A stretch of DNA of 64,000 bases, from contig BCHH01000002.1 of NCBI GenBank assembly GCA_001599595.1, positions 1,278,390-1,342,389 of the forward strand. Direction: 5' to 3'. This stretch comes from Beverwykella pulmonaria. Taxonomy: Eukaryota; Ascomycota; Dothideomycetes; Pleosporales; Melanommataceae. Shown here piece by piece: positions 1 through 16,435 of this stretch (positions within the stretch are counted from its first letter, which is position 1; each line of letters opens with the position of its first letter). The translations under genes were made by a program, and so were the position numbers. The notes under the pieces are model-generated. The model saw nothing but the letters and a program-made list of their open reading frames with translations, ran no database searches and had not been told where the DNA came from.

Positions 1-505
1 GTTTGGATAGGAGGTACTTGGTTGCACAATATCCCTAGCACTTTCACCTAGAAGTGAAAAGAGTGTGATTGAGATGAGCAGAAGCAAACAAGCTAGCAAC
101 GGGTTTGAAATGTGACGGCTTTTTCAATTTCCAGAACGCAAGACAGTCTCACACCAGCGTTATTGTAGCGAATTTAGTACCATCATCCATCCCGTCTGGT
201 CTCCCAAGAGTCTCGTCACCGAAAACAAATTTTCTCACTTACTGATATCATTGTTCGTCATCTAGAGCGATGATGAGTGTTTAGTACTTGCGTCTATCCT
301 TCTCATTACCCCATGTCAATATGATTGCAGAAAGAGACAATTTCGACACCGTCCCGTCACTAGTGGTGTCGAAAATGCAAGACGGACCGAAAGGACGGTT
401 CGTCCTTGTCTTCATTCGTAGGTGTCGTTCGAACGGCAGCTTCTCCCAATCTGATTAATTTTCTTCAGAAAGGAAAAGAGGTGCCACTGTTGATCTCAGC
501 GTCAG
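1..505. other. no gene recognised
   Basis: I see no supported gene here. The stretch lies downstream of the eroded HET gene, which is on the minus strand, and may be its old 3' flank. Confidence 0.4.
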
Positions 506-1815
506 CTATCCGGATTTCACTTCACCGTAGGGGTTCTCGCCCTTCAGTTCCACGTGATAGTCCATGACAGTGGCAAGGTCAACCCAGCTCAAAGCAGTAT
601 CAAGTCCGAGATTTTTAAGTGGACCATCAATTGATGCACAAGACCATGAACGGACACGGTATTCCCGAGGGGATTCCGTATTCTTTCGCCCCATCGCCTG
701 TCAGATGAAGCGTTCAATCATCTCCGAGTGTCACAGACCTGCGGCATACTTATCACCTGTTTATTCCTTGATATTTCTTGTAGTTTCAGCGAGCGCAGGA
801 AGTTTGCCTGAGCCTTTGGTAAACTTTATAGGGTAGTACAACCATAGCATGCGGTACCACAGAGGTGTTGCTCGATATCGTCTGTGTTCTATACGATCTT
901 GGTCGCCATCTGATGGTTGTAGATTCTTGCATACATTTGAGTCTTCGTGGAGGCTGTGGTGGCGACCTTCAACTCAGAAATTATTCTCGCTGTAGACATG
1001 GCTATAGTATTCAAAGAACATCTGCATGATCGCAAATTGTAAAATCCGGGATCCAAGAAATCTTTTTTGAAATGTCCAACCCCGTTAAGAAAGTGGTTCT
1101 TCTGCTAGAACACAGTAGTAGTCATTCGCTTGGGGGCAGCCTCTTTGTGATGCCATGAAGCCCTGCGCTTCACCGCGCAGCCTTCGTGGAGTATTGAATG
1201 CCAAGGTAGCTGAGCAGTGAGCGTTGGATAAGCATGCCCTGGGAGTCATCCTTTGATCCGGTGGCTGCTATTATCAAGTAGACATTTACCTAGATGGGTG
1301 CTATCTTCGCCGACTGTCACTCTTAGTCAGGACAGTCATCCTGGTGTATATTACTTTAAACTTAATTCATTTTCGTGACCAAGGCGTATCTCTTTTGTTT
1401 TTCAAGGAAAGTATGAGATGGAAAAGCGACCAATCAGTTCCGTTCAGGACATGTTGGTCCTTTGAGCTCTTGCCAGAAGTTCTTGATAATATTGTACTTA
1501 CCACAATGAATCAATCCATAGGTACGGTATAACCAGCCGGCGAGTCGAGACCACGGCATTCTAGAAGGTCTCCGAGAGGCCCGCAGCTGATATACATGTC
1601 TATGCGTCACAGCATTGGAGCAAGTGGCTTTGAAGTGGTGTTGAACTCCCCACACTTGGGCTCAAAGCGATGGACTTACCTGGAATTTTGCCTGTTTCGT
1701 ACAATTTAATAATACGTGGATCTAAACTGCCGTCGACGTCTCGCACCCTCAAGGGCAATTCTGCCTCATTGACCACGCATCTCTTGCTCCCGTGCTTGAT
1801 AATTACATTCACGTA
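506..1815 (-). pseudogene. eroded HET-domain (heterokaryon incompatibility) gene
   Basis: Minus-strand translation shows the landmarks of a HET-domain protein in the right order but in shifting frames. Near 1,815-1,620 there is a segment ending in DPRIIKLYETGKIPGK then IALS and GSSTPLQ, matching the usual entry into the HET core (YIALSHCWG). Near 1,580-1,500 another frame reads SETF-stop-NAVV...IPYLWIDSL, the second HET core motif. Near 840-506 one frame reads KLPALA...TGDKYAAGL-stop-HSEM...YRVRSWSCASIDG, the usual C-terminal block. That last frame holds three in-frame stops: 761-763 (TAA), 731-733 and 701-703 (TGA, both where Trp is expected). No intact frame joins the blocks, so this is a relic. 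HET proteins trigger incompatibility cell death in Pezizomycotina; this copy should be non-functional. The family assignment rests on motif memory, not a database search. Confidence 0.75.
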
Positions 1816-1869
1816 CTTATTTCAACGCTATGGTAAGCGTAGTTTCTGGAGCCGAATCCTTCTCAATAA

Positions 1870-2540
1870 CTCGGCCGAAGATAATAGGGCTCCACCCAAG
1901 CAGCCTTCTTTAGGCTAGCTCGTATAGCTAGTCTGTGCATCATTATGTATACGCCTGGTTGTTCATCAAGTCAAAAAGGCTCAGTTAGATCGAATCATTA
2001 CCAACGCGACAAGCAACTATGCTGAGAGTAGTAAAAAGAAAAGGAACATCGAACATGGGTCGTAAATTATGAGTGCAAATCTGATCTCTGAGTTCAAGAC
2101 AGCCTGGGTGGGAATGTCTGGTGGTCTGTGCGTGTTGCTTGTAAAGACTTTGATAATTTCTTCGCACACTATTGTGGCGGGGCATCTTACTTTGCTGATA
2201 CAATTTATGTTCCATGAACAAATCACACATCACGAAGTTGAAATTGCTCTGCTTACCATATCGCCTCTCGTCGCTTATTTTTAGTTTGGGTTTGTCAGTG
2301 CCAAGATGTGGTTGTGCATCGAGGCTGAGCTTACTCGGCTCCCACTTCCCACGCCATACTGTGGCTGGTTTTGGAATACTGTACGAGTTCGACTCTTTGT
2401 AACTCAAACAGAAGGAGGCGCTGTATGTTTTGCCCAGAAATTTTCAGCTATTATGTTAGAATTGTTCAGCCATTGTGCTGATGAACAGAGCCTCAATAAT
2501 AGACTTGAATATTTGATATTGACTCTGACTTAGAGCTTCT
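1870..2540. other. intergenic, no gene recognised
   Basis: Several short open frames overlap on both strands, but none has recognisable domains or splice structure. The stretch separates the HET relic from the secreted-protein gene. Confidence 0.4.
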
Positions 2541-2545
2541 GAAGG

Positions 2546-2551
2546 TATAAA
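2546..2551 (+). promoter_or_regulatory. TATA box of the small secreted protein gene
   Basis: TATAAA lies about 175 bases upstream of the ATG at 2722. The related gene at 25.5-25.9 kb has a TATAAAA at a similar distance, which suggests a shared promoter layout. Confidence 0.4.
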
Positions 2552-2721
2552 GAGAACCGTTGTCGCAGCAGGAAAGATATCATCACAACAGTTCATAAGT
2601 TCTTCAGTACTACAAAACAACACTTGCAATCCTCCATCACCTCCGAACAATCAAAACTACTTCATATCTATCTACCTACCAACTCCACAACAACCAAACC
2701 AAACCAACAACCATAATCAAA

Positions 2722-3132
2722 ATGTACTCTCTCACTGCCCTCACCTTCGGCCTCATTGCTGCCGCTGCCGCCTCCGCAATCCCCACTCCCCAGGCCCCAG
2801 TCTTTGCAAACCTGACCTTCTCCCTTACAAACGACATCACTGGCGCCAATGCCCAGGCCACTCTACCCGGAAATGGCATCGACGTTCCTTTTGAGGACCT
2901 GTTCTTTGGCACCTCCGTCGCTCCCGACAACCAGATTTTTGCAACCAGCATCCAGTTCGTCGCTCTTCCCCCGAATGTCTTCTCGGCTTGTGTATTCGCG
3001 ATCGATGGAAGGGTCGTGGTGATCAATGACAAGAAGACTTTCGGCGACATCGATGGAAACCCGTATGCGGCCATTCCGCAGAGGCTAAACGGGCTTACTA
3101 TCAACTGCCAGACTGATGGACTTGTCGTGTAA
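2722..3132 (+). CDS. small secreted protein, paralogue of the 25.5-kb gene
   Basis: An intronless 136-residue protein. Residues 1-18 form a signal peptide (hydrophobic core ending in Ala-Ala-Ser-Ala), followed by a mature domain of about 115 residues. The mature part has two Cys (in SACVF and INCQ), which could form one disulfide. It shares the pattern NDxTGANAxATxP, then DLFxGTxV, then ATSxQ, with the minus-strand gene at 25539-25934, including both Cys positions, so the two are paralogues. The pyrimidine/adenine-rich leader and the AATCAAAATG start context look genuine. No known fold or function is recognised. Small size, secretion and duplication fit an effector-like or surface protein, which is inference only. 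Its neighbours are two eroded genes, so it is an intact gene in a decaying region. Confidence 0.8.
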   Translation: MYSLTALTFGLIAAAAASAIPTPQAPVFANLTFSLTNDITGANAQATLPGNGIDVPFEDLFFGTSVAPDNQIFATSIQFVALPPNVFSACVFAIDGRVVVINDKKTFGDIDGNPYAAIPQRLNGLTINCQTDGLVV

Positions 3133-3139
3133 GAGGTCA

Positions 3140-3780
3140 GACTTTTGTGATTAGCATTAGTGTTGGAGTTTTTTTTACATTCTATTTGTTTTAAGGTTTA
3201 GTCTTTGTTTATGCATAGCGCTTTGGAGTATATTAGGACATTCTTTTAGCATTCCCTATATGGATATCATGTCCAGTCATTACTTAATAGATAGTATTCA
3301 TAATCCTATTCGATTTTAGAAATATTTGATTCTTGCGACGGTTGAAAATAGTTGAAATTGCTTTCTTCTAACTTTGAGCCATCAATTTTCCGATTTCTTC
3401 GTTGGCGCGACACATCACTTCGTACGAGGCATTTAGACGGCGAAATAAGACGCCGTTCTGTTAGTATTGCAAATGGCGCTCTCCTATGAGATAAACTACT
3501 CATTCACTAGCGCACCGCTAATCTAACTCACTGACTATGTACTCATGGTGCTTGGCTTCAGTGGGGAGGGATCGGGTATGTATCATATACGCCTTGCATG
3601 GCAACCGTTTCAAATCAAATCAATTGCTTTCATCAATCTCGAACCTGATGCAGCGCAAGATCAAAGGCTGCCTGCTGTCTATATAACTAGACGAGCTTAC
3701 TCCAATAGTCACTAGTCTCCTAAGCAATATTAATGCCAACATTCATATACTTCGCTCACTATGCGTCGTGTTAGCTGCAG
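3140..3780. other. intergenic, no gene recognised
   Basis: It holds the 3' flank of the secreted-protein gene and AT-rich sequence. Nothing codes convincingly. Confidence 0.4.
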
Positions 3781-3784
3781 TATT

Positions 3785-4800
3785 CTAGTACTTCGCCTTC
3801 GGATCTAGGCCTTGCATCCTCAGCAGTGGCGGCGCTGGCTTCACAGTAGCCTGTTGCTTGAATGTAAACATGATAGACTTATCCCCTCCACTAGAGATAA
3901 ATTATGCAGCAGGCCAATTCGTCCCGTTAGGAATAGCAAGACGATAGGACTCTGAAAAAGATGATGATGGGATTGATTCGTTTGGCTTCCTCGATGGTAC
4001 CTGGTATAGCGGATCTGTCTTCGGAACTAAACTCTAAGGGGTTGAGCTTGAAGCCAAAAGAGCCACACATTAGCGCTATGTGATGCTGTTTGGTATGGAG
4101 GAGACGTGACAGCTTATTGCCGAGGGTGGTAGACGAGTGAGGTACCTATTTGAACGTCTAAAGTCTGATGCTGTGGCCAGCAGTGAAACAGGTCCGCATC
4201 GAAACAGCCGCCGCCAAAAGCGAAACCTTCCATATGATGTTGGGGTAGGTGGTAGTTAGATTATTGATCGAGCGATAGAGGTCGACGATTTGGTTGTAGT
4301 TTTCTAAAAGATGTGACATTTTGTAGATGCCACGGTTATTGTCTAGGGGTTGTCAGTAACGCTCAGACCTACTACCACAGCCTATAGACTTACACCATTT
4401 GATGGATTCTATGTTGGCCGAATCAATTATGTTCGACACGATTCTAATTATGAACTCCTGCCTCTGGCATCCCTATGCTGAGCACGAGCTGATATCTAGT
4501 GAGAGTGCGAGGGTACCTTCCTAGATGCAAGATCCAATCCGGGTGTTTGCGGGAGAGCATGGAGTTGGGATTTACAATTTGCAGTTCAACCTAGATTCCA
4601 AACTGCAGAGGGGTCGGAAATAAGAACCATGTAGTTTTTGATCTGCTAAACATATTGACATAGACTATCCAGGAACTTAGTGAGATTTGGAGTCCGGTCA
4701 CCAAGACTTAGCGTATCATTGCTGCGACGGTACTCCGTTCCGAATAAGGCATCGTCTATTACAAAACTTTGTATGCGGAGTTCTTCTGCTTCTCCCGTGA
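3785..4800 (-). pseudogene. eroded GH36-type alpha-galactosidase gene
   Basis: Minus-strand blocks in several frames follow the order of a GH36 alpha-galactosidase. Near 4,790-4,690: FVIDDALFGTEY, then LGDRTPN (family VLDDGWFG...LGDWxPN). Near 4,450-4,395: FIIRIVSNIIDSANIE then IKW. Near 4,317-4,230: HLLENYNQIVDLY...YPNIIW. After a one-base frame slip near 4,226: GFAFGGGCFDADLFH, matching the GGGRFD segment around the acid/base region. Then GTSLVYHP, a stop, and SFGFKLNPLEFSSEDRSAIP, the usual C-terminal barrel segment. Near 3,880-3,785: TNWPAA, a stop, then KPAPPLLRMQGLDPKAKY. Stops and frameshifts throughout, plus loss of the usual DDGW, show a dead gene. The enzyme would have removed terminal alpha-galactose from plant oligosaccharides. 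The minus-strand open stretch at 4,759-4,971 overlaps its 5' side but I do not recognise it. Confidence 0.75.
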
Positions 4801-5484
4801 TGTTAACAAATGATGGCTAATTAATGTTAAAATAAAGACTTTCCCAGGAGTTGAGTAGGATTGGACGAGTGTAGTTGGATCGGGAGAGATGGCTTCGATA
4901 CAGATCATTGAAGGATCGCAACATTTCTCCAACACCTGCAGAAGAGATGTAAAGGTCTCACCTAACTGCAAGGACTAACTAGTGTGAAGTCGATTCAATC
5001 CGAGCAGAACTTGGATGAAGTTGTGCGAGAACCTTTCTGCGGTGGCTTGAAAGCTATCTGTGTAAAGAAAGTTGAACCCCTAAGCCTTTTCAGTGCTTTT
5101 GGTATCATTTGGAGACACGAGAGCAAAGAGGAGATTACGAAGATGGGAGAAGTAACTCTCGGTGCCTCCGAATGTGGACTCCCCAAAGTCAACCTTTCTC
5201 TTCACCCGATTGAACTCGTGCATACAGTCACGATGGACCTCAATCATATTTAAATCGAGATTGGAGAAATTTGTACTAAAGCTTGCCGCCCTTTTAATGA
5301 CAATTTGACTCGAGCTATTCTTCGAAATCCTAGAAGCTTCGCGCAATCGCATTGTATTTGGGAAAGATAGAGTAGGATGACACAGCGGAAACATCCGACA
5401 TTCAATTGCCCTATTAAATACAAATAGAAGGAAGATTTATACTTTCTACGCAGAAACCAACAGCGGCGAGCATCCATACCATTA

Positions 5485-5730
5485 TTAGGTCACTAAAAGA
5501 TATAAATCTTGTCGCTTAGTCAATCCCAATCGAAAGTCCGGTGCCTTCGGTAAATATTGTTCCTGAGTATACACAAATGCTTTGTCCCTCTGAGCTTCAG
5601 CAAGGGCGGTTAAACTTTCAGATACTCCCCGATGGATGAGCCAGCATATTGAACAATTCTCGGCTGTTGCTTTGAGCTCGTCAATTGATTGATTATGTGG
5701 CAGGCCTAATGGTTGGCTAAATTCCCCCAC
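5485..5730 (-). pseudogene. fragment resembling the N-terminus of a HET-domain protein
   Basis: An 81-codon open frame contains IDELKATAENCSICWLI, which resembles the region before the HET core (L..SA..GC.IC.LI). A following segment ends before any HET core appears. No HET core follows directly downstream on the minus strand. The strand is the same as that of the HET relic at 506-1815, so this may be the displaced N-terminus of that gene or a separate dead copy. The assignment rests on one short motif. Confidence 0.45.
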
Positions 5731-5734
5731 ATTC

Positions 5735-6525
5735 TTGTCTTCTCCAGCCTTGTTCGCTTTCCCTCATTGAGTATCATTAAAAATTGTCAATCATTTCCAA
5801 GGCATGCTGCAACTGTTATGGTGAGCTGGGAGCGATGGTAGATCTGCAGAGCCCACCGCAGCACACAAGGAGCACAAGCCCATGATGGAACAGGCCCGCA
5901 ACCGGCTAATGTAGGCGAAGGATGATCGAGAACACGCAGTGATGAGATGAATGAATGACAAAGTCTGTCGTGTTAATTTGGCCATGAGAGCCAAATGAGT
6001 GGCGTCGGTTGAAGTATTTCGAATAGAGTTGGATAGAATGAGGGTTGGGATGAGACGATGCATGTGCAGGTAAGAAGTTCGCGCTAATCTACTTCTACTC
6101 TAGACCCAATTGTACGGTCGGACTAAGGGACTACGGGAACGTCTCCACCTGGGCATTCCCCATTTTCCTCCTTCCCCTCCACATCCGCATCGCGAGCTTC
6201 TGCAACCGAGCACGTTCCTGGAATATGCCCAGGCGCGTTCGCGCCAACTGGCTACGCTTGGGGCCGCAAACTCTCGTCTCACATCAGCTCGTTCCTGAAA
6301 ATACCGGGGTACATCTCACACTGATTAGCAATAGATTGCACCTTGCGGGAAACTACTCTGTTTATCCCCAGATTGCTCAGCAGATCTAATATGGAGTACT
6401 TCCAGAAATGAATGTGGTTCCTGAATGGCGGGCCTGTCTTCCCTGAGATGTGTATAAGTATTGTGGGCCTGGTCGTCGGAGAAACTTTGCACGCTCTCGC
6501 TCTCTCAGGATATCTGCCAAAGATT
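5735..6525. other. intergenic, upstream region of the aldose epimerase gene
   Basis: Short open frames occur on both strands (for example 5791-6063 minus and 6110-6298 plus) without recognisable features. The last few hundred bases should hold the promoter of the gene starting at 6530. Confidence 0.4.
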
Positions 6526-6529
6526 CAAG

Positions 6530-7973
6530 ATGAAGTACTCATTCTGTCTGTTTGCTGCTTCGGTTTTGGCGGCTGTTCCGCCCCCGGATGCCGATGGAAG
6601 ATACACGCTAGAAGCGCCAGGAATTCGAGCACAGGTACTTGGCATTTTCCCATGTTTCAAGTCTGCTCTATGTCGAAAACTTTACACTTAATTGAACATC
6701 ATCCAAATTTCTTTTTCGTTGGTTAAATAGCTTAGAGCGCTCATATGCCTCCTCGAATCAATCCCCTTTAACTAATCGCTTGGCAGTTCATTCCTTATGC
6801 CGCTACTCTGACTAACCTGTTCGTCAAAGGTAAGAGAATGTTTCTCCTGCGTATTGAAATTTCTGACACGTGAACAGACAAGAATGGCGTCGAGCGTGAC
6901 ATCGTGTTGGGCTACGACAATGCGTCCTACTATCGTATGTTCTGATCATTCACAGGGATCTTCTTTTCTGACAAAAACACAGCCGTGGATCCCGGACACC
7001 CCGTCTACAATGCCATTCCCGGACGATACGTGAACCGCATCGGCAACGGCACATTCAAGATTGACAACATCACCTACAACACCGTGAAGAACGATGGGCC
7101 CAACACTCTCCACAGTGGGCCCAACAACTGGAGTTACCGGGTATGGAACATAACCGACGTGACCAAGACGTCCATTACGTACTCCATCTACGACCCTGCA
7201 AACTCCACCAACATGCCAGGTCGCGTGGAAGCCGTTGTCACGTACTCGCTCTCCAAGAATAAATGGAATATCGTCATGGACGCGATTTCGCCCGAGGCGA
7301 AGACGCCCCTCATGCTCACGCAGCACACGTACTTCCAGCTTGATGCGTTCGCCAACCCAGAGAACAGGACGATTTGGAACCACACTATTCACATGCCCCA
7401 GGCCCGCCGCGTAATGAAGATTGACGGCGATGCCTTGCCCACAGGGACCATTGCTGACATTCCCAAAGGCGCCATCGACGATTTCTGGTCCCAGCCCCGA
7501 AAGCTTGGATTCGCTGCCAATCAAACCGGATTCGAAGGTCACTGTGGAGGTCAGGGCGCTTGCCATGGATATAACACCAATTGGGCATTCGACAAGAAGA
7601 AGCCTACGGATATCGCTGTTACGCTTAGCAGCGAGTGGAGCGGTATCAAGGCTGACCTTCGCACCGACCAGGAGGCTATCGTTTTGTATACTTGCAACTG
7701 GAATGATGGAAAGACCGAGTTCAAGAGCACGCAAGGTGTCAAGGGCCAGGATAAGTTCATTCCTAGGGATGGCTGCATTGCTATTGAGGCTCAGGATTAC
7801 GTCGATGGAATCAACCAGTAAGTCTTCCTTTGAATTGAGTATGAATCATACGGAAGTTAATGTGGTTATTTAGCCCTGAGTGGGGTCGCTTGGACAAGCA
7901 GATTTTTGGTCCCGGACAGAAGTACCATTGGGAGTCCTCCTGGACTTTCGGCCTGATTGACGAGAAATACTAG
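6530..7973 (+). CDS. secreted aldose 1-epimerase (galactose mutarotase family)
   Basis: Five exons: 6530-6634, 6787-6829, 6878-6934, 6983-7817 and 7874-7973. They sum to 1,140 bases, giving 379 residues. The enzyme interconverts alpha and beta anomers of aldoses such as galactose or glucose. The start gives MKYSFCLFAASVLAAVP, a short signal peptide, so an extracellular or wall location is likely. Family landmarks in order: NAIPGRYVNRIGNG, NTLHSGPNNW (usual NxLHGG), LTQHTYFQLD with the catalytic His (usual NHTYFNL), and IAIEAQDYVDGIN with the catalytic Glu, followed by HPEW across the last intron. All introns have GT-AG borders and are 48-152 bases long. Several N-glycosylation sequons occur in the mature part. 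The eroded alpha-galactosidase upstream could once have supplied its galactose, which is speculative. Confidence 0.92.
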
Positions 7974-10312: not shown

Positions 10313-13300
10313 CTACAGTTGACTGCTCGGCTTGCCACCTCGCTCCCGCAAAAAGGCGATGACATCATCCGTCCTCTTCTGAAAATCTCTCCATTGCTTA
10401 TGGTCACCGGCCAAGCGATGCATCTCCATCATCTCTCTTGGAAAGAATGCCGAGCCTTGAATAGCTTTGATCCAGTTCCGCCGAGTGGCGCTATCAAGAG
10501 GAGTTGGTCCCTTCGGAGGCCTGAAAGTGAATGGCATGGCCGATTGAGGAGGATGTTTAGCTGTCAAAGAACTCGGTAATAGGACTGGCGGAGTGTCTGG
10601 TAAGTCCAGAGCCGGAAGGTTGGGAATGAGCTGGTTGAGTGGTATAAAAGTCACCTGTGCATTGACATCAGCACCTGATTTCAGCAGAAATTCGCACAGG
10701 CGCTTGTTGCCATGCGTTGCAGCGTGGTGTAAGAGCGTTGACCCTCCGAAATCCCTAGTCCGGACCGCTTCATTTAGAGCGCCATGGCTCCCAGGTAGCG
10801 ATTGGAGAGCCTTCTCAATCTTCCTCACCTTCTTCTCTGCGATAGCGTCGCTCCTGTCAAGTTCGCTTTGGTTGCATAGAATAGTGAGGCATGCATGCAA
10901 ACCACTGGATCCCTGCTCTGCTGCTAGCAAACCAATGCCTCCCGCGTCGAGATCTAGCCCGGATGATCGTGGTATCGTGGCGAGCAGTATATCTTGGCGT
11001 CGTTCCAAGATTTCGCTCATGACCCGAAGAGCAAGGAGAGAATTGGTATCCCCAACCGCTATCGCAAGAGCATCCCAAACATTTCCTATGCCGTTATCAA
11101 GGAACACCTTAACAGCCTCAAGCCGAAGATCACTAGCGGCAATAACTAGCGGATCGCTGCAAATCACCGAACCTCCAGGCCAGGCCGTACTGCTTTTGGC
11201 GCTTCTGTCAGCCCCATGAGCAAGTAAGCACTCCACCAAGTCCGCTATTTCGTGCTCAGTCCGACCTCGGGAATGACTCAGAAGTTCAAAAAATGTGGAT
11301 TCCGGCTGAACCAAAGGTGGCGCAGATCCAAAATGAGGCCAAGGAGGTGCGAAGGTCGTCTTGAGGCTTCCGATGTATCTGAAAAGCATTCGAACCATTT
11401 CGATGGAACTGGAACTGATAGCTAAAGACAGAAATGACTCCATGCTCACATGGAATGTGACGTAGTTGCTTGTTCCAAAATCCCGGTACCGACAAACGCC
11501 GTAATCAGTGCCGGGCTTGAAACATTTCTCTGCAATGATGTCCTTGACAATGCCAACGACATCTTCTTGGAAAAGCTGAATGTCCAAGCACTCGAGGATC
11601 ACTAGAGTTTTGTCGATTGAATGGCGCTTCCAAATGTCCAATTCCAATATTGACTGCACAAAATCTTTTCTGGGCGAAGCCCCATGAAGCAGGAGCCGAA
11701 GAGGTGTGTTGAGCAGTGAGCCGAGAAATGGCACTATCTCGTCAAAGTCTGGCTGTTGGCGGTTAAATCTTTCAAGTAAGGTTGTAGAGAGCATCATCTC
11801 AATGATGCCAAGCGAGCGATTGTTGAAAGCAACCCACCAGGCCGGGAAGTTTGGTGAGTTTGGTTGCCCGCGGAACGGATCAGCACCTCTCGCCAGCAAA
11901 GTATAGACGGCATCAGCATTGTCAACGACTGTTGCCCAAACCAGTGGCGTTCCCGAGAGACTGAAGTAATAGTCTGAGGAAATGAACTGCTGGAGAGAAT
12001 CCATACTGTCCGAAGGGACGTTCAAGTCTGCACCAGATTCGCAGAGGAATTCGAGAACTTGGGTGGAAGCAGATCCGAGTATGGCGTAATGGAGAGGGGT
12101 AGCCTTCAAATTAGATTGAATGTTCACTGAGATCATGTTCGGATCGAGGATTCGAATGGCTTCTAGTGACCCGCTGATGGCTGCGTAGTGAAGCGGTGTT
12201 TCGCCGTGGGAGTTTGTGACGTTGGTTTCAGCGCCTTGGGATATGACCATTTTAACCAATCGACCGTTGCCCGTCAAAGCCGCCTTGTGTAGAGATGTCA
12301 CGCCGTCCCTCTTTGTGAAGAACTCGAAAATCTCATCCAAGGTTTTCGTAGTAGCCTGATCCGAATTCAGCCAATTCACCCCATGTTTTTGTATGTTGCG
12401 CATCCAACGGTCCCCCAATCGCTGTCGAGCTGCAATGACCTGGTCGTCTACAATTTGTAGCACGGCAGGATTGGTTCTTGCCAGGCTTTTTCTTGCCAGA
12501 AAGGAGCCCCTCCGTACTCCCTCTTTGAGCCAAAGATCAACTTCAGTGGGACATGGCATCCCACAATGGCTGAAGCAAGGCTGGCACATTTGCTGTGCTT
12601 TTTTGTTTCCAGCCTTTGCGGCTTGATAGACGAGCTCGGCAGCATACTGTATGTTTGAGTTCGGAGCGAACCCCTGATAATAAGAAATAGCGAGGCCCAG
12701 TCGGAGCTGAGCTTTGCGTTGATCTGAATCATCGAGTTCGCCCATGACGCGAAGCATCTCCATATATATCACTTGACGGAATGGGAGCGGGCAAGTGCTG
12801 AGTCTGAACATTTGCCACGGAAGCTTTCATGATATGATTAGTTTTGGTTTAGTCCCTGTGTGCCCTTCAGATACTAACCCACGGCGAGTCGAGGTAAAAG
12901 TCCCCATGCTTCAGCAGCCTTGGAGTGATGCCATTTGGTACGTCGCAGACTCTAATGGAAGTTAGATTGAAACCGTCCGGCAGGAGGGAATAATTGGCTT
13001 ACTTGAACAAACCACCACGGTCTTCTAACGCTGCAATTATCTCGTTGAAATTGGTAGCACGACTCTTCGGCTCCCCTTGCAGAGTCCATTGAAAAATTTG
13101 ACTAATTGTGTGCATATCCACATCAGCAGGGTGACATCCTTCGAGACTCTGCCTTGCAAGTTGGTAAACCATCTCTCCCTGGTCGGCCTGTTTGAATGAG
13201 TCAAAGTCGTCAGCAGAAAGTTCCGCCCTCGGCTCATTTGGCTGCTGCGAGCTGGTATGGTGCAAGACGATTCGCTGCTTTCTCTTGACAAGCACTTCCC

Positions 13301-14364
13301 AAGGTCTGGTTCCATTGAGCATCACACTCCAAACCAGCAATCCGTAGGAGTATATGTCGACTCCGCGAAGGGCCGATGCATCGAGTAGACTCCCACCTTT
13401 TTGATTTGGCGCCCTCCACCCTGACGTGCCCTTGGTGATGCGTCGTAATCCTCGCTTCTGTATGCCATCACTGACTTCAATTAACGATGAACCTGTTCCT
13501 CGATTAGCCGAAACGCCTCTGTTGTCGATACTCATAAGAGACAAGTACTGACCGAAATCTGATATTTTCGCAAGATAGGCTCCCTTATGTTTTGGATCTT
13601 TGCAAAGTAATACATTTCTATGCGGTTAATAATTAAGGAAATGGGTAGTACAGTGTCAGAACATACTCCGGTTTTACGTCCCCATGGATCACGCCGCAAT
13701 CATGGAGAAACTGAAGTCCTCGCGCGATATCCAGACAGATGTCCTTCTTTGTATCTGCTGTGAGAGCAAGCCTCTCCGGATCTTGAAAGTCTGCCAAGGT
13801 GCCGAAGTCCCCATAATCCATCACAACACTAGGTAAGGTAAGATTGAAATCATCTTGAAAATCCCAGCGCGTCTGCAACAAGCTGATGATGTTTGGATGA
13901 TCGTGGATAGGCTGATGTCGAAGGATCTTCATCTCCAGCATCGCCGCGCGAAGACGATGAATGTCTGAGTCTTTCAGGTTAGTCTGGTCGTCAGAATAGA
14001 AGATTTGCTGTTTCAGGACGACGAAAGTTGGCTTCGGATCTCTCTCTGGTTCTCCAAGAGCAGCTATGAGATGCTCCCCAGCGGCATATGGAATGCGCCG
14101 GACAATGTAGGTCCCGCCCTCCCCCAAGAAATGGCCATGAGCTGGCGGTAGTCTTCGACCAACACGGGACGAGGTTCGACGAAAATTCGTGTATTCGCAG
14201 GCTGTCAAGAAATCGACATCGATGAGGCCAAGAAAATCGTTGAACGGATCATCGCCCGGGCTTTCCGAGAAGGCTGTTCGTGTCACGTCTACATAGTTGG
14301 ACCAAGAAGACATGTCTGTCAGGCTTGGGTTGCAAAAAATCGAAACCTTGACGTAGACTGGCAC
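10313..14364 (-). CDS. Ser/Thr protein kinase with Sel1-like and ankyrin repeats
   Basis: Four exons: 14364-13667, 13617-13003, 12951-12879 and 12823-10313. They sum to 3,897 bases, giving 1,298 residues from the first ATG; a start at 14313 (MSSWSNY) is also possible. The kinase domain covers about residues 75-440, with glycine loop GEGGTYIV (81-88), Lys118 (VVLK), a helix-C Glu near 144, HGDVKPEN (227-234) and DFG (253-255). The VKPE/N and DFG region is joined across intron 1. A VDIYSYGLLVW segment marks subdomain IX. All catalytic residues are present, so activity is predicted. A Sel1-like segment follows at about 490-530. Ankyrin repeats lie at about 640-780 (TSLHKAALTGN, ETPLHYAAISG, ATPLHYAILG) and 1165-1200 (TLLHHAATHGN). 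No membrane segment or signal peptide is seen. It is divergent from the HeLo-pseudokinase gene, with 337 bases between start codons, which suggests co-regulation and a signalling link. The substrate is unknown. Confidence 0.88.
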
Positions 14365-14701
14365 GCCTTTTGATTAAAGAAAGCTTTTTAGACAGTTGCA
14401 GCTTGGATATTGTGAGAGCATGGTTATCGGAGATCATGACTGATCGTCTGGTGATGAGCGTACAGGATCAGCTAGCTTCCCGCATGCGCCTCTTGCCGAA
14501 CCAATGAGGCCGGCGATAATTCATATATGATCTGATTTGTGTCATGTCTGTGGCAAGAGGACACAAGGTGATTGGATTTCAATTTTTGGCGTGACTGATA
14601 TGAGCGCCTAAGCAGTTCAAAATTAATGCGCAGCGAGGCCTCTCTTAATTCTCTCACTCTGTTTGCTGCGGGATCTGCAACTCTTCGACAAGACAGCAGC
14701 A
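14365..14701. promoter_or_regulatory. shared bidirectional promoter region of the kinase-ankyrin / HeLo pair
   Basis: The 337 bases between the two divergent start codons must hold both promoters and 5' leaders. I see no clear TATA box or repeated operator. The short distance compared with the other intergenic regions here is the main sign of joint control. Confidence 0.5.
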
Positions 14702-16435
14702 ATGGCGCTTTCGACTACCTCCGCGATTGCTAGCCTGGAAGGTTTCTGCGGTCTGGTTAGAGATGCTGCTGCCGTCTTCCAGTACTGCCGACGCATCGTT
14801 GAATCGATGGCGAATATGGGAAAAGACGCCCAGTACCTGGAAGACCAGGTCTACATCGAGCATACGCGATTTGTGATCTGGCAGACTCTTCACGATTTGG
14901 TCGATACCAACACTGTCCCACTATCGAGCCAATTTCGCATCCCAGAGGTTCGTGACGGTGTGCAAAGAATCCTTGCCCGGATCCAGGCTCTGAAAGAAAA
15001 AATTGAGGAGTTGGCAAAACCCTTCGGCCTCGAGTTTGACAAGACAGATTTGGACAAGACAAACAAGAAGGAGTCGACGAAGGTGGTGCGATATGTGCGG
15101 ACGAATACGTCGCTACGATCAGAAACCGTTGCCACGGAGATTGATCGGAAATCGACCGAGCAAGATAGAATAAAAAAGAAAAATACATACTGGAGAAAGG
15201 CGATTTGGGCTGTCAAAGATTTCAGACATCTCCAAGAGCTTATCAACACCCTGTCAACGTACAACGACCAACTGGCAAAGTTCACGCAGCCAATGGCGCT
15301 CGGCGTTGCTCATGAGGCTCTCATCAAGCTACTACCAATGCCGACTCGCAATGACAGCCTTGAATCGCGTATCGCATCGATAGAAACGTACAAGGACGTT
15401 TCCTCTGCCTCGCTTGCCATGAAGCAAGAGATTGATGCGCAAGTTGCAGCGTGGAAGGCAGATGCAGCCGACGCAGATGTGGGGAGCCGCAAGCTTCCAA
15501 CTTGCCAAGTTCATGGCTGGCAATCGACTATCGCGGAGATTTGGGACCGCAAGGTTGTCGATTTTGACCTTGGGAACGGAGAAAAGAAATGGGGAATCAT
15601 TGAATGGAAGAGTTACAATCCAGCCAAGATCTCGACATCATATATCTCCAGGCGGGCTGATGGCATTGTGAGCACGCTCCAGGCGTCGCCAGAAGGATCT
15701 GCTGTACTTCGGGCAGCGGGATGGATCGAAGACAGCAGTCAGGAAGGGACGAGGACCCGCCTGGCGCTACTGTATGAGTTGCCACCCCAATTCTCAAGCA
15801 GGGAAAGGAAGCCCACGATTCGGACTCTCAGGCAGATGCTGTCTTCGAACAAAGCAACCCGAGGCCACCGCCTGGGAAAGCACGCCAAACCCCCCCTTGG
15901 CCAGCGCTTCAAGCTTGCGGCGCAAATTGCAGAGGCGCTCGGTGCAATTCACAATTGTGGTTGGCTGCACAAAGGCATGCGACCGGAGAATATTGTCTTC
16001 CTATGTCAGCAAGAAAATGACGTTGAAAATCCTCACATACTCGGTTGGGCCTATTCTCGGCGCAACGCCTCTGGGGAGCAGACAGATGCCGCTTTAAAAG
16101 AGATGGAGGACATCAGGCTGTACCAACACCCTGCATACATTGAGAATGAGGAAGAGCAGTATTGTGAGGCATTTGACCACTATCAGTTTGGCTGCCTTCT
16201 GGTCGAGATCGCCTGGTGGAAGCTGCTTGCAGATGTGAAAGAGAAAATCGCACCAAACTTGGAAGGGGAAGACTGGAGCGATAAGTTGATTGAACATGCT
16301 CAAGACTTGAAACAGGATATGGGAGAAATATATAGCTCGGCCATGGAATCACTTCTGAGAGGATTAGATCCCGATGATTCTCCTGCCGAATTCTGGTTCG
16401 ATATTGTCTGGAAGCTGCGACAATGTACTGCATAG
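14702..16435 (+). CDS. HeLo-domain protein with a C-terminal pseudokinase (MLKL-like architecture)
   Basis: An intronless protein of 577 residues. An upstream in-frame ATG at 14663 adds 13 residues, but 14702 (CAGCAATGG context) places the HeLo domain right at the N-terminus. Residues about 5-210 match the HeLo / prion-inhibition domain: LEGFCGLVRDAAAVFQYC, then a helix with DAQYLEDQVYIEHTRFVIW, the usual L..KL..E..RL..W pattern of HET-S. A basic helical linker follows. Residues about 285-560 look like a kinase fold, but the catalytic loop reads LHKGMRPENI (H423-N430, no catalytic Asp) and DFG is replaced by LGW (447-449), so it should be inactive. HeLo domains permeabilise membranes in fungal cell death when activated. 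A kinase-fold regulator in cis and an active kinase encoded next door suggest phosphorylation control, which is inference. No C-terminal amyloid motif of the HET-s type is obvious. Confidence 0.85.
   Translation: MALSTTSAIASLEGFCGLVRDAAAVFQYCRRIVESMANMGKDAQYLEDQVYIEHTRFVIWQTLHDLVDTNTVPLSSQFRIPEVRDGVQRILARIQALKEKIEELAKPFGLEFDKTDLDKTNKKESTKVVRYVRTNTSLRSETVATEIDRKSTEQDRIKKKNTYWRKAIWAVKDFRHLQELINTLSTYNDQLAKFTQPMALGVAHEALIKLLPMPTRNDSLESRIASIETYKDVSSASLAMKQEIDAQVAAWKADAADADVGSRKLPTCQVHGWQSTIAEIWDRKVVDFDLGNGEKKWGIIEWKSYNPAKISTSYISRRADGIVSTLQASPEGSAVLRAAGWIEDSSQEGTRTRLALLYELPPQFSSRERKPTIRTLRQMLSSNKATRGHRLGKHAKPPLGQRFKLAAQIAEALGAIHNCGWLHKGMRPENIVFLCQQENDVENPHILGWAYSRRNASGEQTDAALKEMEDIRLYQHPAYIENEEEQYCEAFDHYQFGCLLVEIAWWKLLADVKEKIAPNLEGEDWSDKLIEHAQDLKQDMGEIYSSAMESLLRGLDPDDSPAEFWFDIVWKLRQCTA

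Follow-up and report, generated by a model that had tools for sequence, protein, structure and literature searches.

A kinase-ankyrin gene beside a HeLo-pseudokinase gene

The window, that is the whole stretch of 64,000 nucleotides analysed here, corresponds to C2:1278390-1342389 of the 45.6 Mb assembly (31 contigs) of the ascomycete Beverwykella pulmonaria and contains two head-to-head genes. One encodes a protein kinase followed by ankyrin repeats (hereafter KANK) and the other a HeLo domain joined to a pseudokinase (hereafter HPK). The pair is not a one-off: pairing of kinase and pseudokinase genes in this genome goes beyond chance. The features of the window pair and of the related modules are collected in the table below.

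KANK was assembled as a spliced frame with introns at 13666-13618, 13002-12952 and 12878-12824, all GT-AG, the splice sites being set by continuity of frame and motifs, without transcripts. Its catalytic motifs are intact (K101, HGDVKPEN from residue 210 with the catalytic Asp at D212, and DFG at residue 236), and together with the Pfam kinase and ankyrin matches they agree with a preliminary description of the locus, made from the sequence alone, in which this gene appeared as an active kinase with ankyrin repeats. The Sel1-like repeats listed in the same description were not recovered, as no Pfam Sel1 match was obtained at E <= 0.1. The catalytic residues had been named correctly but under shifted numbers, K118 and D229 for K101 and D212, because the count began at a GTG lying 17 codons upstream. 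The same upstream GTG explains why the distance between the two genes was given as 337 bases; their position and divergence were right, and the distance between start codons is the one in the table. This gap is presumably a shared divergent promoter. Neither KANK nor HPK has a Pfam match to NACHT or NB-ARC.

The HeLo domain attributed to HPK was confirmed by profile search, well above threshold (65.1 bits for PF14479, against a curated cut-off of 23.2). The C-terminal part is a pseudokinase of the DUF7580 family, since the profile scores above its cut-off (E 6.5e-8, 33.0 bits against 27) and both catalytic Asp residues are lost; the Pkinase profile scores 28.2 bits, under its cut-off of 31.7, and a PDB sequence search found kinases alone, all weakly matched (best E 0.033). 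In an alignment of the window protein with 12 relatives, Gly425 is present in 13/13 and an Asp at the HxD or DFG place in 0/13, so the earlier picture of a kinase fold without catalytic Asp and DFG holds, while the beta-3 lysine (Lys303) is kept in all thirteen. Thr461, in the pseudo-activation segment, is a candidate phospho-acceptor. With adjacent genes, a repeat-bearing partner and a HeLo-type effector domain, the pair has the layout of the fungal two-gene sensor/effector systems, and, in the divergence of its kinase-ankyrin and pseudokinase genes, also that of the FfkA/PskA type of Aspergillus nidulans (see below).

Recurrence of the pairing in the genome

Genome-wide profile searches located 15 HeLo places and 29 DUF7580 places. 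On the kinase side, the DNA pattern HxDxKxxN was found at no fewer than 164 places, a lower bound, against 15 for the reversed pattern, and the narrower pattern HGD[IVM]KP at 15 against 0. Seven of these 15 HGD[IVM]KP motifs have a DUF7580 place at 6 kb or less, where 0.12 would be expected (binomial P 1.3e-11); the corresponding counts are 4/15 at 4 kb, 5/15 at 5 kb and 7/15 at 8 kb. The adjacency is 6/14 without the window pair (P 8e-10) and 3/11 (P 8e-5) when, in addition, the kinases of loci L019, L021, L028 and L030 are collapsed to one. The motif place at C1:3407380 (L033), which has no kinase frame among its frames of at least 170 amino acids, is still counted. Seven other motif places lie away from DUF7580; three of them were read and hold two kinases (L032), a kinase-TPR gene (L034) and a kinase with a HET frame (L035), and four were not read. 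The preliminary description had asked whether the two genes are regularly neighbours, and within this genome such pairing recurs far above chance.

The gene arrangements were read in 20 stretches of 10 kb, a non-random set made of the HeLo places and of those DUF7580 places with a HeLo overlap, a long frame or a weak score, then in three more and in four around unpaired motif places; L029 was included because of its entry in the motif list. Eleven kinase-pseudokinase modules resulted, in which a kinase has a DUF7580-type pseudokinase as its neighbour; the pseudokinase is in most cases attached to a HeLo or HeLo-like part, and once it is followed by a subtilase. Eight of the eleven are divergent where one quarter is expected (P 0.0012), and in six of these eight the starts are 208-639 bases apart (for L012 and L026 the gap was measured at one end from an open-frame start instead of an ATG). 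Repeat frames accompany 8 of the 11 partner kinases (ankyrin in 4, TPR in 3 and WD40 in 1).

The division into an active kinase and a pseudokinase, proposed earlier for the window pair, is borne out by the motif columns genome-wide. The 11 partner kinases and four fusion kinases (see below) keep the Asp of HxD in 15/15 and that of DFG in 15/15 cases, and among the pseudokinases of the genome (n=16) the Asp is found at the DFG place in 0 of 15 aligned and at the HxD place in 2 of 14 aligned (the L022 fusion and L023). These counts leave aside three of the eight control kinases (ctl1, ctl4 and ctl6) and the L029 pseudokinase, which do not align at the motif columns. Kinase and pseudokinase trees agree in part: L012 groups with L013 in both (support 0.999 and 0.994), and the kinases of L019, L021, L028 and L030 and the four fusions follow the same branching order, with node support down to 0.052 and 0.115. 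No mirrored branching was seen in the two trees for the window, L020 and L027/L031 pairs.

Among the six HeLo places without a matched pseudokinase (L009, L011, L015, L016, L017 and L018), a kinase lies in the stretch once, at L017; for L015 the genome kinase list gives one about 5.3 kb away. Small as the numbers are, what goes with pairing seems to be this kind of pseudokinase, not HeLo or DUF7580 per se.

Table. Features of the window pair (window coordinates) and the eleven kinase-pseudokinase modules of the genome; distances are between gene starts.
Feature or module	Position	Strand or arrangement	Remarks
KANK, kinase-ankyrin gene	10313..14313	-	spliced open frame, 1281 aa; ATG 14313, stop 10313
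KANK exons	14313-13667, 13617-13003, 12951-12879, 12823-10313	-	three GT-AG introns
KANK protein kinase domain, aa 122-404	13053..13950	-	PF00069, E 3.7e-21
KANK first ankyrin block, aa 617-714	12017..12310	-	PF12796, above cut-off
KANK C-terminal ankyrin repeat, aa 1139-1168	10655..10744	-	PF00023, above cut-off
Intergenic stretch between KANK and HPK starts	14314..14701	.	388 b between start codons
HPK, HeLo-pseudokinase gene	14702..16435	+	one open frame, single exon, 577 aa; Pfam; AlphaFold2 model
HPK HeLo domain, aa 18-198	14753..15295	+	PF14479, E 1e-17; helical in AlphaFold2 model
HPK pseudokinase domain, aa 363-550	15788..16351	+	DUF7580; kinase fold ~aa 257-577 in model
HPK WLHKG, aa 421-425	15962..15976	+	HxD place; H-K-G at 423-425, Asp replaced by Gly425
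HPK LGW, aa 447-449	16040..16048	+	DFG place, Asp lost
HPK Thr461, pseudo-activation segment	16082..16084	+	Thr/Ser in 13/13 aligned sequences
Window module		divergent	KANK/HPK; 388 b
L012 module		divergent	kinase-ankyrin; 488 b
L013 module		divergent	kinase-ankyrin; HeLo-pseudokinase with in-frame stops; 1518 b
L020 module		divergent	208 b; appears decayed
L026 module		divergent	kinase-WD40; 637 b
L029 module		divergent	kinase; partner gene has frames for DUF7580 and a subtilase (PF00082); 349 b
L021 module		divergent	fusion and HGDIKP kinase; 639 b
L024/L030 module		divergent	fusion and kinase-TPR; 2703 b
L022/L019 module		tandem	fusion, kinase-TPR, HeLo-pseudokinase
L028 module		convergent	fusion and kinase-TPR
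L027/L031 module		tandem	kinase, then ankyrin frames, then pseudokinase

Some of the loci are worth describing in their own right. At L013 (C9:1347000-1356999) the HeLo-pseudokinase copy (3504-5402, minus strand) carries in-frame stops, which may stem from repeat-induced point mutation, and the adjoining kinase-ankyrin gene seems less damaged. At L029 (C6:2056500-2066499) the DUF7580 and subtilase PF00082 frames (1213-4449, minus strand) are divergent from an HGDVKPEN kinase; a small frame there (121-1077, plus strand) is by resemblance a tentative fungal gasdermin candidate, with no support from Pfam or from PDB sequences. L035 (C2:3673800-3681799) has an HGDIKPEN kinase frame (3799-6135, plus strand) with a HET domain frame close behind (PF06985, E 3.3e-29), the two being perhaps one gene. 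L023 (C3:2706500-2716499) has a frame of 1473 amino acids (3475-7893, plus strand) with HeLo (E 2.4e-5) and DUF7580 (E 2e-7) matches and a long C-terminal part; it may be the counterpart of SltB of A. nidulans, in which case SltB would be a relative of the HeLo-pseudokinases. L015 (C4:1202500-1212499, minus strand) is a single frame of 1565 amino acids with HeLo and ankyrin repeats, and at L032 (C1:3045200-3053199) an HGDIKPNN kinase gene (plus strand) lies near a kinase-like N-terminal frame (minus strand), with no pseudokinase seen in the stretch.

Fusions and relatives in other genomes

Single-chain fusions of a kinase and a pseudokinase occur across the Pezizomycotina, in several classes. 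A protein search with the L024 fusion frame gave 95 homologous proteins, and the order kinase then pseudokinase was found in 83 of the 86 tested with our own profiles (P0014-P0099, nine weaker matches being omitted), from sources that include Lindgomyces, Curvularia, Drechslerella (Orbiliomycetes), Nemania, Beauveria, Bacidia (Lecanoromycetes) and Fusarium. The 47 fusions that were aligned repeat the division seen in the pairs: the kinase keeps its Asp in 47/47 at both HxD and DFG, and the pseudokinase has one in 3/47 at HxD and 0/47 at DFG. The AlphaFold2 model of one of them (P0014; predicted local distance difference test 85.3, predicted template modelling score 0.80) comprises a kinase fold (~128-425), a helical bundle (436-594) and another kinase fold (~611-920), the limits being taken from secondary structure. 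Between the two kinases lies a partial match to the HeLo profile (54 columns, probability 71.6%), against at most 0.2% for 20 column-shuffled controls and 1.5% for a kinase profile. Domain fusion is classic evidence of joint working, and as the fusions join both domains that are kept apart in the pair, they would point to joint working of the paired genes as well. A viral contig collection gave no relatives; the 46 loci matched in a prokaryotic contig collection, with bacterial titles, cover only query residues 27-447, before the pseudokinase, and were not used.

The window pair itself is likely conserved in at least one other source, from which both a close relative of HPK (P0001, 93%) and a relative of the last exon of KANK (P0109, 89%, 832 amino acids) derive. 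Each lies on one contig, 29,199 bases long in both cases, and it is thus very likely that the two genes share it. Further relatives of HPK come from two genera of Pleosporales, Amniculicola (P0003, 78% across 59% of the query) and Lojkania (P0004, 48%).

A related arrangement has been published for A. nidulans, where pskA (AN7985) encodes an SltB-like pseudokinase and diverges in transcription from ffkA (AN7986) (PMC4557415), and FfkA is a kinase with ankyrin repeats (PMC3591445). The preliminary description knew of no fungal pair of this form. This needs amending, as the divergence of pskA and ffkA was noted in 2015, although in passing and with no HeLo domain mentioned in the main text of that paper. 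Our comparison with this pair follows the published description only.

A possible kinase-gated killer

Several known systems offer points of comparison. The mammalian RIPK3-MLKL system also couples an active kinase to a protein whose helical domain is N-terminal and whose pseudokinase is C-terminal, the order found in HPK, a likeness of architecture that would not by itself mean common descent. It differs in that the presumed effector of the window has a HeLo domain, not the four-helix bundle of MLKL, and in that the window kinase carries ankyrin repeats. Foldseek matches of the HPK model include the MLKL pseudokinase (4m67, rank 11) and full-length MLKL (4btf, rank 14), and are led by others, among them the JAK1 and MerTK kinases, which outrank MLKL. 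The 4btf alignment extends over 568 columns but with a root-mean-square deviation of 18.3, and the likeness to HPK is therefore one of domain order only. The VIA-align match of the model spans only about residues 253-577 and hardly covers the HeLo part, so that the absence of HET-S and of the MLKL four-helix bundle from its matches carries no weight. RIPK4 and ANKK1 are RIP kinases made of a kinase domain with ankyrin repeats, and KANK resembles them in architecture only. Closer to home, the het-S/nwd2 and gasdermin/protease clusters are adjacent fungal genes for a repeat-bearing sensor and a membrane-attacking effector (PMC10197012, PMC12881547); unlike these, the presumed sensor of the window is a kinase with no NACHT or NB-ARC match, and the link between the partners would run from kinase to pseudokinase instead of through amyloid templating (het-S/nwd2) or proteolysis (gasdermin/protease). 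Some HELL proteins have been described as carrying a kinase or pseudokinase domain; the account consulted mentions no adjoining kinase for them. SltB, finally, is also a fungal pseudokinase, with a possible counterpart (L023) that has DUF7580 and HeLo matches, but is joined to a protease and acts in cation tolerance (PMC4557415).

We favour, with moderate confidence, the interpretation that KANK and HPK constitute a two-gene signalling module in which a sensor kinase switches on a pseudokinase-gated killer, following a RIPK-MLKL-like logic. As we infer it, KANK would be both sensor and switch, its ankyrin repeats detecting a trigger, and HPK both receiver and effector. KANK would engage the pseudokinase domain of HPK, by the simplest route phosphorylating its pseudo-activation segment, possibly at Thr461; the HeLo helical domain would then be released, oligomerise and permeabilise the membrane, and the hyphal compartment would die. 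The pair would thus be a form of the fungal sensor/effector gene pair that resembles RIPK-MLKL in its working, and we do not claim membership in that family.

A number of observations weigh against this interpretation. Three partner kinases have an altered DFG motif (DFN, DFS and DLG, the Asp being kept), that of L020 is without the catalytic-loop Asn, and no repeats were detected in the partner kinases of L020, L021 and L029. A frame of 157 amino acids lies between the two genes of L024/L030. The helical bundle of the fusions stands mid-chain, and therefore a simple throwing-out of an N-terminal membrane helix does not apply to them. The distance limits of the adjacency count were picked after the pattern was visible, and the P values overstate independence because part of the co-occurrence reflects copying of modules (L012/L013 and L019-L021-L028-L030). 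Fourteen unread DUF7580 places, mostly high-scoring, have no listed kinase within 14 kb (the kinase list being a lower bound), and pairing therefore does not extend to the DUF7580 family as a whole; at L010, L014, L023 and L025 the 10-kb stretch holds a pseudokinase without a kinase, though for L010 the genome kinase list places a convergent one about 4 kb downstream. Among the 13 protein-search matches, none is a KANK orthologue to go with the HPK relatives of Amniculicola and Lojkania; in these fungi it may evolve faster, be mis-annotated or be missing. Lastly, deletion of ffkA is viable, with no phenotype listed for it (PMC3591445), and for the pskA deletion the published account gives none of the tested slt phenotypes (PMC4557415).

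The module could be real and yet have another output. Stress or developmental signalling, with the HeLo-like helices acting as a membrane tether or oligomerisation device, would have a parallel in SltB, which combines a pseudokinase with a protease domain and signals to a transcription factor (PMC4557415); if L023 is perhaps its counterpart, HeLo-bearing pseudokinases may not all kill. We nevertheless consider this rather unlikely, as the HeLo match of HPK is strong and near the N-terminus, and as the copying of L012/L013, together with the in-frame stops in L013, is a turnover that would be more in keeping with conflict genes than with a core pathway of stress response. Less plausible still is a guard or decoy arrangement, in which HPK mimics a kinase targeted by a pathogen or a virus, KANK is the guarded kinase or an inhibitor, and loss of its activity frees the HeLo domain. 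Pseudokinases do participate in plant immune recognition (ZED1), and the tight divergent pairing would suit an inhibitor and its effector no less than an activator and its effector; the retention of both catalytic Asp residues in the 11 partner and 47/47 fusion kinases rather looks as if catalysis matters, although an inhibitory kinase would keep them too.

We give very little credence to mere coincidence, that is, to both families residing in immunity-gene-rich regions where neighbours are loosely related in function. Larger clusters do exist on C18 (a fusion, a kinase and a HeLo-pseudokinase) and on C6 (a kinase, the pseudokinase-subtilase and a further frame), and the kinases at or near L017 and L015 accompany HeLo loci without a matched pseudokinase. 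But the 20 other frames scanned in the window (27 frames of at least 190 amino acids in all) are ordinary where Pfam matched them (aldose epimerase, mechanosensitive channel, RSN1-type channel, AMG1, NST1, lipase and DUF6242), and neither the short start-to-start distances of six of the eight divergent pairs nor the fusions in several classes are what such islands would lead one to expect.

It is tempting to speculate, as a possibility and not as an expectation, that filamentous ascomycetes hold a general currency of immunity and self-destruction, in which sensor kinases (ankyrin, TPR or WD40) would each have their own neighbouring pseudokinase gating an interchangeable killer. The sensor kinases would then be built like NOD-like receptors, with a kinase replacing the NACHT core, and the killers might comprise the HeLo pore former and a subtilase, perhaps acting on a gasdermin, with one kinase having a HET-domain frame at its side. 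If this were true, RIPK-MLKL would represent a single instance of a much broader design.

The action of a kinase on a pseudokinase killer is the defining step of mammalian necroptosis. Necroptosis-like death in fungi has been tied to MLKL by the helical domain and to RIPKs by RHIM-like amyloids (PMC12881547), and no report of this step in fungi, nor of a neighbouring kinase linked with a HeLo-pseudokinase, was present among the literature matches listed, a set that mostly leaves subscription papers and preprints outside. The recurring kinase/HeLo-pseudokinase pair makes the step from kinase to pseudokinase directly testable in fungi, with A. nidulans, for which deletions of both ffkA and pskA exist, as a ready test bed. 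The module would also suggest a role for the ankyrin-bearing kinases of filamentous fungi.

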